This document shows, in pieces, positions 8,827-14,330 of a DNA stretch of 54,822 bases (its first letter is position 1; each line of letters starts with the position of its first letter). Origin of the DNA: Roseiflexus sp. GTDB lineage: Bacteria > Chloroflexota > Chloroflexia > Chloroflexales > Roseiflexaceae. Made by a program: the position numbers and the translations under genes. Under the pieces are notes generated by a model. The model was not told the origin of the DNA. It searched no databases and saw only the letters and a list, made by a program, of their open reading frames with translations. Location: NCBI GenBank assembly GCA_017743475.1, contig JAGHYV010000026.1, positions 1-54,822 on the forward strand, read 5' to 3'.

Positions 8827-8937
8827 GGGCAGTACGCACCGAGTACGGCGGCGTTTGCGTTAATATGCTCAGGGGATCTGTCGCCTGGGTGCACACTCCC
8901 CTGAGTATGACCCTTAATGAGATCGTCAGGAGCAACA

Positions 8938-10599
8938 GTGGAACCAACTATCAGCGATCCCTGGGGTGACCGCTTCAGTGAAGCGGAACGTGCCCTGCTG
9001 GCGCCGTTCGTAACCGACGTCGATGCGCCGGTGTTTGGATTGCGCAACCTTCCCGATGTCGTGTGCGGCGCCCTTTTCTCACGCTACAGCCGTTCCGATA
9101 AGAGCCTGCGCCGTATTCTGCTCGATGAGTTCATTCAGGCGCCGGAAGCCGATTTTCATGCAATTGTGGCGCTTAGCGCCGACGCCGCAGCACATCAAAT
9201 TGTCGCTGTTCATCGGGCAGAGGCGTTTTATGAGCGCGTTCTGATCGGGTATGGCGATGATTCAGTGGCAGAGTTGGGCGGCGCCCACGTCGCCTGTGAA
9301 GGGGTCAGCAATATTGCAGCTAAGGCACTCGAAGACAGTCGCATTGGCATCAGTCCGCTCGAAAAATCGACCCGTTACGTTGCCTTCAACCGCAAGGTCG
9401 AGGGACGTTACCGCTATCTGCGTGAGGCGGCAATCATGGCGTCGCGTCACGCTCGTGCCTACGAAACAGCGATGGACACCCTGTTCGATACCTATTCGGC
9501 GTTGATCGAGCCGACGCTTGCCGCCGTTCGCGCTCGTACACCCCGCGAACCAGGGGTCTCCGAACGTGCATATGCGAGTGCCACGCGTGCCAGGACCTTT
9601 GACTTGCTGCGCGGATTGCTGCCAATGGCGACATTGACCAATGTCGGGTTGTTTGGTAATGGTCGCGCATTTGAGTACCTTCTGACGAAACTGTATGCCT
9701 CGCCGCTAGCGGAATTGCAGGCGCTAGCAACGGCGTTGCAGCGTGCGCTGGACGACCAGATCCCTTCGTTTGTCAAGCGCGCAAAGAGTGAACGCGGCAG
9801 AGCGTACCAGGCGTATCTGCGCGAAACGCGCCAGGAAGTGCAGAAGCTTGCAGCAGTAGCGGCGAATCGGTTGGCAGAGGTCGATTCGCATTCACCCGAT
9901 GTGACGCTCGTGGCATTCGATCCCGATGCCGACATACGGGTTGTTGCGGCAATTCTCTATCCGTATCTCGACTCATCTCTGGCAGACACGCGTGCGCTGG
10001 CAGAGGCAATGACCGCTGATGAACGGATGCGCCTGATCCGCGCTTATGCGGGCAGGCGTGCCAGTCGCTTTCACCGACCGGGGCGGGCGTTCGAGGAGGC
10101 GCGCTACACGTTTGACCTGCTGGCAGACATCGGGGCGTACCGCGATCTCCAGCGGCACCGGATGCTTACCCAGGAGCGGCAGCGGTTCGGCGTGCAGCAT
10201 GGGTATGTGGTTCCGCCGGAGATCGACGAGTACGGACTGGGTGCGCCGTTTCGCGCTGCACTGGATCAGGCAGGCAAAGTTGTCACCGCCATCGCCGCCG
10301 ACCTGCCGGAGGAGGCACAGTATGCAGTCCCGTTCGCATATAGGGTGCGCTGGCGTGTGACCCTCAACCTGCGTGAAGCGTATCATCTGTGCGAACTGCG
10401 GAGCGCGCCCCAGGGTCATCCCGGCTACCGGCGCATTGCCCAGGAGATGTATCGCCAAATTGCCGCCGTGCATCCGTTACTGGCGGAGGGGATGCGCTTT
10501 GTCGATATGAACGATTACGCTCTTGAACGACTCGATGCCGAACGTCGCCTGGACGAAAAACGACGCAAACTGAGCGAAGAACAGCAGGTAAACGAATAA
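8938..10599 (+). CDS. ThyX-like protein with two tandem domains
   Basis: 553 aa from GTG 8938 (AGGAG at 8928-8932); an ATG at 8917 is the alternative. Both halves resemble FAD-dependent thymidylate synthase ThyX. The first has SVAELGGAHVACEGVSNIAAK followed by SPLEKSTRYVAF, matching the ThyX layout (H/E..ST.RYV) but with the RHR arginines replaced (EDSR). The second has LQRHRMLTQERQRFG, close to the ThyX signature RHRxxSxNExSxRY, then YVVPPEI. Ordinary ThyX is a 200-270 aa subunit of a homotetramer, so this is about twice the length, a duplication with complementary degenerate sites. Whether it makes dTMP is not known from the sequence. Its stop codon overlaps the start of the subtilase gene (TAATG), so the two are translationally coupled. 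Confidence 0.75.
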   Translation: MEPTISDPWGDRFSEAERALLAPFVTDVDAPVFGLRNLPDVVCGALFSRYSRSDKSLRRILLDEFIQAPEADFHAIVALSADAAAHQIVAVHRAEAFYERVLIGYGDDSVAELGGAHVACEGVSNIAAKALEDSRIGISPLEKSTRYVAFNRKVEGRYRYLREAAIMASRHARAYETAMDTLFDTYSALIEPTLAAVRARTPREPGVSERAYASATRARTFDLLRGLLPMATLTNVGLFGNGRAFEYLLTKLYASPLAELQALATALQRALDDQIPSFVKRAKSERGRAYQAYLRETRQEVQKLAAVAANRLAEVDSHSPDVTLVAFDPDADIRVVAAILYPYLDSSLADTRALAEAMTADERMRLIRAYAGRRASRFHRPGRAFEEARYTFDLLADIGAYRDLQRHRMLTQERQRFGVQHGYVVPPEIDEYGLGAPFRAALDQAGKVVTAIAADLPEEAQYAVPFAYRVRWRVTLNLREAYHLCELRSAPQGHPGYRRIAQEMYRQIAAVHPLLAEGMRFVDMNDYALERLDAERRLDEKRRKLSEEQQVNE

Positions 10600-12974
10600 T
10601 GTCGAACGTTTTTCCCTCTTCGCCCACTCCAGCAAGTCGGGGTGGCACTGGTTGTCTGCTGGTAGCGATGGTTGGACTGGTCATATCGATATGTGGCATG
10701 GTGGCGCTGGTCCAGATCATCGCGCCGTTTGCAGGTGCGCGTCGTGCCGGTCACATCGCCGTTCTCGTTTCCTCGGTGATCTTTGGTCTGCTTTTTGGGG
10801 GAGCACTGACGATTGCCCGTGCGCCGCGGATGCGCGCTGCACTGCACGCCTGGTTGCTTGCACTCCCGCTGACGTGGGTCATGGTTCCGGCAGCCATGTT
10901 CCCCTCAGCGGAAGCACAGATTGCAGCCGTGGCGCGTGTCGCGTTGATCGGTATCTACCTGGGTGCGCTCTGGATTATGGTGCGCTGGCGTTTTCCGGCG
11001 AGCGTCCCGGCGGGCTGGCGTGCCATACCCCTTGCCGCCGGCACTGCTGCGTTGCTGGCACTGCCCTGGCTGGCGTGGGGGGCACTTGGATCGCTGCTCG
11101 ATATCGTGCTTGGTCTGGCTGCCGCCGTTCTGTTTGGTATTGCCGCGGCACTTCTGATCACGCAGGTCTATCTGCGACCGCTCCCCGATGATCCGGACGG
11201 TCCAGGACTTCTGGCGGGCAGTGCAGTCACCAGCATACTCTTGCTCATCCTGGGATGGAATGTCGGTATTGCTGGGCAATCGTTGATCCTGATGCCGTTG
11301 CTGCCAGCGTTGGGATGGCTGGCAGGCGCAATTGCGGGAATTGGAAGTGGGCGTGCCCCCGATGCACGGGCGTGTGCGCTGTTCGTTGCGCTCGTTATCG
11401 CCCCGCCGCTCCTATTTGCCGACCCCGATACGCTGCACATCGAGTTGCTGGCGCAGGGACGTGAAGGGATCGCCTGGGCGTTGGGATCGGTCAGTGTGAG
11501 CGTTCTGCTGGCGCTTGTTGCGGCAGGCGTCGTGCCAACGCTGCGACGATATGCGGATCGTGCGCCACGAGCGGTCGGCGCAGGTGCATTGATGCTCTGG
11601 TTGACCGGTGCAGCAGTGTACAGCAGCATCGGGCAGCCTGGTTTCTATGGCGATCGACTGTTCGTCATCCTGAAAGACCAGGCTGATCTCTCATCGGTTG
11701 CGTCTATTGCCGATTACCAGCAGCGCCGTCGTGCGGTGTACGAGACTCTGGTGCGTCACGCCGATGCAACTCAGTCTGGATTGCGCGCCGAGCTGAGCCG
11801 TCTTGGGGTCTGGCATCAACCCTACTACCTGATGAATGCGCTAGAGGTCGAGGGGGGCGTGCTGCTTCGTCTCTGGCTGACAAATCGACCGGAGGTGGAT
11901 CGAGTGGTGCCTAACCCAGTGCTGCGTCCGCTCCCTGAGCCGCCGGAGGCGCAACGTGGCACCATGCCCTCTCCCGACGAGACGCCGTGGAACCTAACCA
12001 TGATCAACGCCGATCGCGTCTGGCAGGAGTTGAACGTTCGCGGCACCGGGGTTGTCATCGGCTTGATGGACAGCGGTGTTCAGTGGGATCATCCCGAACT
12101 GCGCGACAGTTACCGCGGCGTGCAATCCAATGGCACCGTCGTTCACGAATACAACTGGTACGACCCGTGGGGCGGATCGCCAGAACCAGTGGATTATAGT
12201 GGGCACGGCACCTTTACCCTTAGCGCAGCTGTCGGTAATCGGGTGGGAGTTGCCCCTGACGCCACCTGGATCGCGTGCGTCAATCTGGCGCGCAATGTGG
12301 GGAATGCTGCGCGCTACCTGGACTGCATGCAATTCATGCTGGCGCCCTTTCCACCGGGCGGCAATCCCCTGCGGGACGGCGATCCGGCGCGTGGCGCCGA
12401 TGTGACCAACAACTCCTGGGGATGCCCGCAGGACCTGGAAGGGTGCGACCCGAACACCCTGCTACCGGCTGCGGAAGCATTACGCGCCGCGGGGATGATG
12501 ACGATTGCCGCCGCTGGCAACGACGGTCCGGCGTGCGGCAGCCTGAACGCCCCCCTCGCTCTCTATGACGCGGTCTTTACCGTTGGCGCCGTGGCGAGCG
12601 ACGGCTTCCTCGCACAATTCAGTAGCGTCGGTCCGGTGACGGTGGACGGAAGCAGACGCATCAAGCCGGACATTGTTGCGCCAGGAGACGACGTACTTGC
12701 TGCTGCCCCGGAGGATGGCTATATGACCGGCAGCGGCACGTCGATTGCCGCACCGCATGTGACTGGCGTCGTTGCACTGATGTGGTCGGCAAACCCGATA
12801 TTGATCGGCGATGTGGAGCGCACCGAAGCAATCCTGCGCGCCACAGCGCAACCTGCGCCGTCCGAAAGCCCATCAACGGTACAATGCACTGGCGTTGACA
12901 TTTCGGCAGCATTAGCGAGTCGATACGGCGCAGGGATCGTCGATGCCTATCAAGCCGTGCGCGCTGCCCGATGA
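10599..12974 (+). CDS. polytopic membrane protein with extracytoplasmic subtilisin-like (S8) protease domain
   Basis: 791 aa. Residues about 20-340 contain roughly nine to ten hydrophobic helices. After residue about 345 comes a short propeptide-like stretch, then an S8 domain from about 465: Asp in GLMDSGVQWDHPEL, His in DYSGHGTFT, oxyanion region NNSWG and AAAGNDGP, and Ser in GSGTSIAAPH. The catalytic triad is complete. The ATG overlaps the TAA of the ThyX-like gene. Membrane-embedded subtilases of this form are not the common secreted type; the protease domain probably faces outward and the helices may sense, anchor or transport. Substrate unknown. Confidence 0.85.
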   Translation: MSNVFPSSPTPASRGGTGCLLVAMVGLVISICGMVALVQIIAPFAGARRAGHIAVLVSSVIFGLLFGGALTIARAPRMRAALHAWLLALPLTWVMVPAAMFPSAEAQIAAVARVALIGIYLGALWIMVRWRFPASVPAGWRAIPLAAGTAALLALPWLAWGALGSLLDIVLGLAAAVLFGIAAALLITQVYLRPLPDDPDGPGLLAGSAVTSILLLILGWNVGIAGQSLILMPLLPALGWLAGAIAGIGSGRAPDARACALFVALVIAPPLLFADPDTLHIELLAQGREGIAWALGSVSVSVLLALVAAGVVPTLRRYADRAPRAVGAGALMLWLTGAAVYSSIGQPGFYGDRLFVILKDQADLSSVASIADYQQRRRAVYETLVRHADATQSGLRAELSRLGVWHQPYYLMNALEVEGGVLLRLWLTNRPEVDRVVPNPVLRPLPEPPEAQRGTMPSPDETPWNLTMINADRVWQELNVRGTGVVIGLMDSGVQWDHPELRDSYRGVQSNGTVVHEYNWYDPWGGSPEPVDYSGHGTFTLSAAVGNRVGVAPDATWIACVNLARNVGNAARYLDCMQFMLAPFPPGGNPLRDGDPARGADVTNNSWGCPQDLEGCDPNTLLPAAEALRAAGMMTIAAAGNDGPACGSLNAPLALYDAVFTVGAVASDGFLAQFSSVGPVTVDGSRRIKPDIVAPGDDVLAAAPEDGYMTGSGTSIAAPHVTGVVALMWSANPILIGDVERTEAILRATAQPAPSESPSTVQCTGVDISAALASRYGAGIVDAYQAVRAAR

Positions 12975-13139
12975 GACGAAAGTTGACGATAGGGCGCGCA
13001 ACCTTTACAATTTATGCAGTGTACTAATTATAGGAGAGGAAGAGGCGGCTGTCGGCTGTATCTCCAGAACGGCAGAAGCAAAACCCTGGACGCGCGGGCG
13101 CGCGCCGCCGCTCCAGTTTCATCGCGCACACGAGGTGCC

Positions 13140-14330
13140 ATGCGCCTAATACTTTACCTTGGCAAAGGTGGCGTTGGTAAGACAACCACCGCAGCGGCGA
13201 CTGCGGTTCGATCCGCCGAACTTGGCTACCGGACGCTGGTTGTCAGCACCGACGTCGCGCACAGTCTGGCTGATGCGCTTGATCATCCACTGGGAGCGCA
13301 ACCGACCCAACTGACTGATCGACTCTGGGGTCAGGAGATCAATGTGCTGGAGGAGGTGCGTCAGCACTGGGGCGAGTTACGCAACTATCTGGCGGGATTG
13401 CTCAAACGGCGCGGCGTCAGTGATGTAGCATCGGAAGAACTGGCGATCATTCCCGGCATGGAAGAGGTCGTCAGCCTGCTCCACATCCGGCGTCAGGCAC
13501 GCGAAGGCAACTTCGATGTTGTTATCGTCGATGCTGCGCCAACAGGCGAAACCATCCGTCTGTTGACGATGCCAGAGACCTTTCAATGGTATGCAGCGCG
13601 GGTGATGGATTGGGATCCTGGCACCAAGAGTGTCGCCAAGCCGCTGGTGCGCGCCCTGATCCCGGCAACCAACGCTTTTGAAACGCTTGAGCGCCTGACC
13701 AAAGGCGTTGAAGCCCTACGTCAGACTCTGACTGACCCTGATGTCAGTTCGTACCGGTTGGTCGTCAATCCAGAGCGTATGGTCATTAAGGAAGCGCAGC
13801 GCGCAGCGACCTATCTGGCTCTGTTTGGCTATCCGGTTGATGGCGTGGTGCTGAACCGGGTGCTGCCGCGCAACGCTGTTGCAGGCGAGTTCATGGAGCG
13901 TCTGTACGAAATGCAATCGTCGTACCGCAAGATGGTACACGATCTGTTCGCACCGCTGCCAATCTGGGAAGCGCCGCACTACCCGCACGACATCCGGGGA
14001 ATTGGCGATCTTTCGCGGGTCGGGCATGACATGTTCAAGGACGAAGACCCGACAAAGGTTTTCTTTCGCGGTACAACGCAAGAGATCATTCGCGATGGCG
14101 AAGAATATGTGATGCGGTTACCGTTGCCGCATGTCGAGATCGGCAAGGTGTCGATCACCAAACGCGGCGATGAGTTGTTCGTGACGATCGGCAATTTCAA
14201 GCGCGATATGATCCTGCCGCTGACCCTTGCGGAGCGCCCGGCAAAGCGCGCCGTATTCCGCGAAGGAGTGCTGGAAGTGCGCTTTGGCGCGCCAGAAACG
14301 ATCGAGCCAACGGCGGCATCCACCGGTTGA
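13140..14330 (+). CDS. ArsA/Get3-family ATPase with C-terminal Hsp20-like domain
   Basis: 396 aa from ATG 13140 (GAGGTG upstream); the preceding 42 codons of open frame are unlikely to be translated. It has the deviant Walker A motif LGKGGVGKTTTAAA, switch I-like VSTDVAHSLADAL and switch II DAAPTGETIRLL. A single ATPase domain is followed by about 90 residues (YVMRLPLPHVEIGKVSITKR ... GVLEVRFG) that look like the alpha-crystallin/Hsp20-type domain found at the end of many bacterial ArsA-like proteins. No arsenite-binding Cys cluster and no ars genes are nearby, so a client-targeting (Get3-like) role is more likely than arsenite efflux. The DUF59 gene follows about 100 bp later on the same strand. 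Confidence 0.85.
   Translation: MRLILYLGKGGVGKTTTAAATAVRSAELGYRTLVVSTDVAHSLADALDHPLGAQPTQLTDRLWGQEINVLEEVRQHWGELRNYLAGLLKRRGVSDVASEELAIIPGMEEVVSLLHIRRQAREGNFDVVIVDAAPTGETIRLLTMPETFQWYAARVMDWDPGTKSVAKPLVRALIPATNAFETLERLTKGVEALRQTLTDPDVSSYRLVVNPERMVIKEAQRAATYLALFGYPVDGVVLNRVLPRNAVAGEFMERLYEMQSSYRKMVHDLFAPLPIWEAPHYPHDIRGIGDLSRVGHDMFKDEDPTKVFFRGTTQEIIRDGEEYVMRLPLPHVEIGKVSITKRGDELFVTIGNFKRDMILPLTLAERPAKRAVFREGVLEVRFGAPETIEPTAASTG

Follow-up and report, generated by a model that had tools for sequence, protein, structure and literature searches.

Flavin-dependent thymidylate synthases (FDTS) of the ThyX type are homotetramers that draw the residues of one active site from different subunits. In Mycobacterium tuberculosis (Mtb) ThyX, deoxyuridine monophosphate (dUMP) is contacted from subunit A by Arg95 and Arg199 and from subunit C by Arg87, Ser105, Arg107 and the lid residue Tyr108, while flavin adenine dinucleotide (FAD) is contacted by the RHR motif of subunit A and by Ser71 and Arg190 of subunit B (PMC6514825). 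In the Thermotoga maritima (Tm) enzyme, dUMP is activated by Arg174, and mutation of Ser88, Arg90 or Tyr91 strongly slows the methylene-transfer step (PMC8316439). The Tm equivalents of Mtb Arg95, Arg199, Ser105, Arg107, Tyr108, Ser71 and Arg190 are Arg78, Arg174, Ser88, Arg90, Tyr91, Thr55 and Arg165, respectively, and Tm His53 touches both the flavin and the folate. The chemistry of ThyX gives back tetrahydrofolate (THF), not dihydrofolate. A duplicated ThyX domain in Chloroflexi was noted, as uncharacterised, by Valas and Bourne in 2009 (PMC3224940); this was the only report on fused, tandem or duplicated ThyX found in a literature search that left subscription journals mostly outside its coverage, and a partition of residues was described nowhere in the literature found. 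The present analysis concerns such a double-domain thyX gene of Roseiflexus sp. and the subtilase gene that follows it, both on contig JAGHYV010000026.1 of assembly GCA_017743475.1 (positions 1 to 54,822, the whole 54,822-nucleotide stretch analysed, hereafter the window). The sequence comparisons make it very probable that this gene encodes the only de novo thymidylate synthase of its host, a fused ThyX with composite sites built from both halves, that it stems from an internal ThyX duplication and fusion, and that the subtilase is a local neighbour without functional link to it.

Division of the active site between the two halves

A set of 88 double-ThyX sequences, comprising 79 close homologues (the window protein included) and nine distant ones, was compared, and both halves were mapped to Tm and Mtb residues by profile alignment and motif spacing. 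Half 2 retains Arg78 in 88 of 88 sequences, His79 in 87, Arg80 in 85 and Arg174 in 88; at the half-1 positions they occur in one, none, none and none, respectively. Half 1 in turn retains Glu86, Ser88, Arg90, Tyr91, Arg147 and the Ser/Thr55 position in every sequence, the corresponding counts in half 2 being 0, 1, 1, 0, 0 and 1. The dUMP and FAD residues Arg78, His79, Arg80, Glu86, Ser88, Arg90, Tyr91, Arg147 and Arg174 are hence each present once per chain in 85 to 88 of the 88, and the equivalents of Arg165 and Asn163 are retained in both halves. In the window protein, STRY (151-154) occurs in half 1 only and RHR in half 2 only. This complementarity of RHR and STRY had been noticed in the preliminary description of the locus; it holds in all 88 homologues, and the division is wider than was seen there, since it takes in Arg147 and Arg174 too. 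Because the same division recurs throughout the set, the split is not a matter of chance, and it extends to plasmid and jumbo-phage versions at about 22-30% identity.

Judged by these alignments, the role of subunit A falls to half 2 and the role of subunit C to half 1, which also carries what Ser71 contributes to the role of subunit B; Arg147 belongs to the C side in ThyX annotation. The replacements at the lost positions are themselves conserved (Arg142 in 82/88, Arg390 in 83/88, Arg421 in 76/88 and Gln468 in 76/88), which suggests selection rather than decay. Lys258 of half 1 was considered as a substitute for Arg174 and was not counted, as it lies one helix position off and is not conserved in the distant members.

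As classical ThyX draws these residues from different subunits of one active site, composite sites may be envisaged here as well. Two fused chains would assemble like the ThyX homotetramer into a four-domain pseudo-heterotetramer. Of its sites, two would be composite and complete, with half 2 holding FAD via RHR and activating dUMP via Arg174, and half 1 supplying the Ser-Arg-Tyr loop; the remaining two would lack the catalytic groups and be catalytically dead. By analogy with ThyX, the enzyme would use methylene-THF, FAD and NAD(P)H to turn dUMP into thymidine monophosphate (dTMP) and would release THF. Both halves are probably needed for activity, because each keeps only part of the active site. 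The non-catalytic sites may serve a structural or ligand-binding role; a bolder version, in which the protein is an obligate half-of-sites synthase and its two non-catalytic sites have been remodelled to bind a different ligand, e.g., a regulatory nucleotide or folate, is speculative and rather unlikely.

Table 1. Features of the double-domain thyX locus (window positions; residues counted from ATG 8917)
Feature	Position	Strand	Remarks
Double-domain flavin-dependent thymidylate synthase gene	8938..10599	+	553 aa from GTG 8938 (560 aa from ATG 8917); two Thy1 domains
Shine-Dalgarno-like AGGAG	8928..8932	+	five bases before GTG 8938; read directly
Half 1 ThyX domain	9205..9765	+	PF02511, 53.8 bits; dUMP-loop residues, no RHR or Arg174
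Ser116 = Mtb Ser71 / Tm Thr55	9262..9264	+	half 1; FAD, third subunit; Ser 88/88; half-2 mirror Arg 83/88
EKSTRY 149-154 = Tm Glu86-Ser88-Arg90-Tyr91 loop	9361..9378	+	half 1; E, S, R and Y each 88/88
Arg232 = Tm Arg147	9610..9612	+	half 1; Arg 88/88; mirror Q468 never Arg; placed by half-1 profile alignment to Mtb ThyX
Half 2 ThyX domain	9907..10476	+	PF02511, 93.5 bits; RHR and Arg174, no Ser-x-Arg-Tyr loop
RHR 413-415 = Tm Arg78-His79-Arg80	10153..10161	+	half 2
Arg495 = Tm Arg174	10399..10401	+	half 2; dUMP activation; 88/88; half-1 mirror position 259: 0/88
TAATG one-base overlap	10597..10601	+	thyX stop TAA 10597-10599, subtilase ATG 10599-10601; read directly
Membrane subtilase gene	10599..12974	+	791 aa; ~9 N-terminal membrane helices, C-terminal Peptidase_S8, E 1.9e-40

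Two ThyX folds in one chain

The preliminary reading of the product as a double-domain ThyX-like protein is borne out by the Pfam search, in which PF02511 (Thy1) was found twice in one unbroken frame, both times above the curated cut-off of 24.8. A classical single chain of ~220-250 aa with the full residue set and four equivalent sites is thus not what the gene encodes, as the product has 553 aa and two domains, neither of them complete. The open reading frame (ORF) program placed the start at ATG 8917, from which all residue numbers are counted; GTG 8938, the start given in the preliminary description, is the likelier one because AGGAG sits five bases upstream. A profile search with half 2 reached solved ThyX at E 5e-6, while a single-protein phmmer search against PDB chains gave no match, so that ThyX was reached by family profiles only; the profile searches of PDB chains returned single-domain ThyX chains only. 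The full-length AlphaFold 2 model has a mean pLDDT (predicted local distance difference test) of 88.1 and a pTM (predicted template modelling score) of 0.88. In the predicted model, half 2 superposes on T. maritima ThyX with Z 17.0 and a root-mean-square deviation (rmsd) of 2.5 over 192 aligned residues, and half 1, folded alone (pLDDT 86.7), on M. tuberculosis ThyX with Z 13.3 and rmsd 3.0, likewise over 192 aligned residues. Unrelated folds score Z <=5.3 in the half-1 comparison, and both halves adopt the ThyX fold in the models.

A single thymidylate synthase gene found in the genome

The Roseiflexus genome (4.97 Mb, 206 contigs, rated 100% complete) was searched for another thyX or thyA, as the preliminary description had proposed. 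A single Thy1 ORF was found there, with no ThyA and no other ThyX; DHFR (DHFR_1) was not found in the genome either, which fits ThyX since this enzyme returns tetrahydrofolate. Among 60 related genomes, the present one included, 45 carry the double ThyX, five a single-domain ThyX and six a ThyA, and the four with none of the three are 75-84% complete. The 47 good-quality genomes divide into 37 with double ThyX, four with single ThyX and six with ThyA, with zero overlap and zero blank. ThyA was found in none of the 44 other relatives with double ThyX. Likewise, in each of 18 carriers from Chloroflexota, Cyanobacteria and DPANN archaea, there are two Thy1 matches, which both fall inside the double ORF, and no ThyA. 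On these gene inventories, the housekeeping synthesis of dTMP almost certainly falls to the double ThyX.

The neighbours of double thyX genes elsewhere point the same way. A dUTPase gene immediately precedes double thyX, on the same strand, in 13 cyanobacterial loci (gap -10 to 144 bp, with frames taken from stop to stop), and a serine hydroxymethyltransferase (SHMT) gene abuts double thyX in five DPANN loci, on the same strand in four (L110, L113, L118 and L126) and on the opposite strand in L114; both identities were confirmed by Pfam for representatives. dUTPase yields dUMP, the substrate of ThyX, and SHMT yields methylene-THF, the methylene donor. As these neighbours supply substrate and donor, a housekeeping synthase role is supported. 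In Tunturiibacter phage Tunturi_5, an annotated deoxycytidine monophosphate (dCMP) deaminase precedes the double thyX. The DPANN double ThyX proteins (L108-L136) are ~50% identical to the window copy, which suggests transfer between domains of life.

Several other synthase genes in the compared genomes are unusual in themselves. The ThyA matches of G028, G031, G037, G051, G055 and G059 span only about residues 88-256 of PF00303 within frames of 498-648 aa, and these may be fused or extended ThyA proteins. The single-domain ThyX of G035, G029 and G026 (L033, L034 and L035) is a divergent subtype of ~247 aa with WKH for RHR and an insertion before SGRY. In G038, a single-domain ThyX (L038 1471-3300, minus strand) is interrupted precisely at the active-site loop (NEA, then CLTGDTEITFLQ ... 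SGRY) by an insert that resembles an intein. In G032, thyX is in two pieces with an HNH-endonuclease-like ORF (447-977) between them (L037 447-1695), and the interruption is probably a mobile intron.

The subtilase and other explanations

The downstream gene was described beforehand as a membrane subtilase sharing TAATG with thyX, and both points hold: the protein has nine predicted helices and a Peptidase_S8 domain with the motifs DSG 491, HGT 536 and GTSIA 713-717 (Asp491, His536 and Ser715), and the overlap is plain in the sequence (Table 1). From this arrangement, the preliminary description had suggested that the ThyX-like flavoprotein has a function outside housekeeping and is coupled to an outward-facing protease, a proposal that now finds no support and appears highly improbable. 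The overlap is present in the window and in a 97%-identical relative (L004), and the pair adjoins in one sister genus and in every Roseiflexus genome that yielded both genes, which speaks for coupling. However, the overlap is absent from other Roseiflexus (L062-L065), where roughly 200-480 bp separate the two genes, and no such subtilase was found near the double thyX loci of Herpetosiphon, Chloroflexus, Cyanobacteria and DPANN, so the pairing is not conserved across the wider family. Full-length subtilase relatives lie on contigs other than the thyX contig in G010, G011 and G034, and G035 has one yet lacks a double ThyX. The absence of any other synthase from the own genome and the dUTPase and SHMT neighbours elsewhere also argue against the protease as partner. 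A functional link was therefore rejected. One-base overlaps between adjoining genes are ordinary in bacteria, and the two genes are probably co-transcribed in the two genomes that have the overlap; by its distribution, the coupling is local and recent. In a draft Roseiflexus relative (G001) no thyX match was found and the subtilase begins 123 bases into its contig (G001:C574:123); as the subtilase starts at the contig start, the absence is probably an assembly edge. Farther downstream in the window (13014-14330) stands an ArsA/Get3-type ATPase whose C-terminal domain is HSP20-like (ArsA_HSP20); next to it comes a SufT-like protein of FeS assembly.

Two further explanations leave the protease aside. 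The double ThyX might methylate another nucleotide or make another modified pyrimidine, as PolB methylates uridine monophosphate (UMP)/dUMP, with dTMP coming from thymidine kinase salvage alone; a thymidine kinase is indeed present, PolB structures are among the Foldseek matches, and His53 is replaced. This would have to be reconciled with the strict one-of-three exclusion with ThyA and single ThyX, the dUTPase and SHMT neighbours, the retention of all Ser88, Arg90, Tyr91, RHR and Arg174 equivalents and the sole Thy1 protein in 18 diverse genomes, and it is accordingly given very little weight. About equally slight is the chance that one half is catalytic and the other is a scaffold or regulatory domain. 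Fusions of a catalytic domain with a pseudoenzyme exist, and half 2 outscores half 1 against Thy1 (93.5 versus 53.8 bits), but half 2 lacks Ser88, Arg90, Tyr91 and Arg147 in nearly all 88 sequences, and half 1, which has these four in every one, is without RHR and Arg174.

Some observations weigh against a sole synthase with composite sites, which nevertheless stays the strongly favoured explanation. The His53 position holds Asp in half 1 of 82/88 homologues and His in none of the half-2 copies; in the window protein it is Asp114 in half 1 and Pro388 in half 2. A clear equivalent of Mtb Arg87, a C-side dUMP contact, was found in neither half. Against the NCBIfam ThyX equivalog TIGR02170, the protein scores 55.5 bits, below the cut-off of 87.9. 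The thymidine kinase makes salvage of dTMP possible in principle, and the geometry of the putative composite sites rests on homology. Finally, Corynebacterium glutamicum shows, by the titles of the structures 3ge9 and 3fnn, that a ThyX need not be the synthase, but ThyA is present in that organism.

Comparison with known thymidylate synthases

Like the classical ThyX of T. maritima (TM0449), M. tuberculosis and Helicobacter pylori, the fused protein has the Thy1 fold, here in both halves, carries most of the tested dUMP and FAD residues once per chain, and is the sole synthase in genomes without ThyA; by analogy, its active sites would also be composite and lie at subunit interfaces. Unlike classical ThyX, it is a fused double domain with the residues divided, so that two of the four tetramer sites can be complete, its subfamily has Asp for His53, and the identity in structural alignments is ~17-24%. 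The double ThyX of mobile elements, i.e., Bacillus/Paenibacillus plasmids, Microcystis phage Ma-LMM01, Tunturiibacter phage Tunturi_5 and Vibrio phage Yong, shows the same two-half layout and the same partition, but the Bacillus-type plasmid and phage proteins differ in retaining His at the His53 position of half 1, and the Bacillus group has RHN for RHR. The single-domain ThyX of family f2 from the same order, to which the divergent ~247-aa proteins above belong, is of the same Pfam family and likewise exclusive with other synthase types, and differs in its one domain, its WKH and its insertion. The fused enzyme thus belongs to the ThyX superfamily and almost certainly does the same job, with an asymmetric architecture.

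The active sites were not discussed in the account of the duplicated Chloroflexi ThyX (PMC3224940), to which the present analysis adds the residue partition, the spread to Cyanobacteria, DPANN archaea, plasmids and phages, the sole-synthase test and the dUTPase and SHMT neighbours. The protein is encoded by the only synthase gene found in these thermophilic phototrophs and in the sampled cyanobacteria and DPANN archaea, and the support for a housekeeping role now goes beyond the generic label 'FAD-dependent thymidylate synthase'. Because two copies are fused and the residues divided, it can be asked directly how many of its four sites ThyX needs and what group each subunit contributes. The roles can be mutated one at a time, a genetic handle that is missing in homotetrameric ThyX, and models of ThyX should also cover this asymmetric site.

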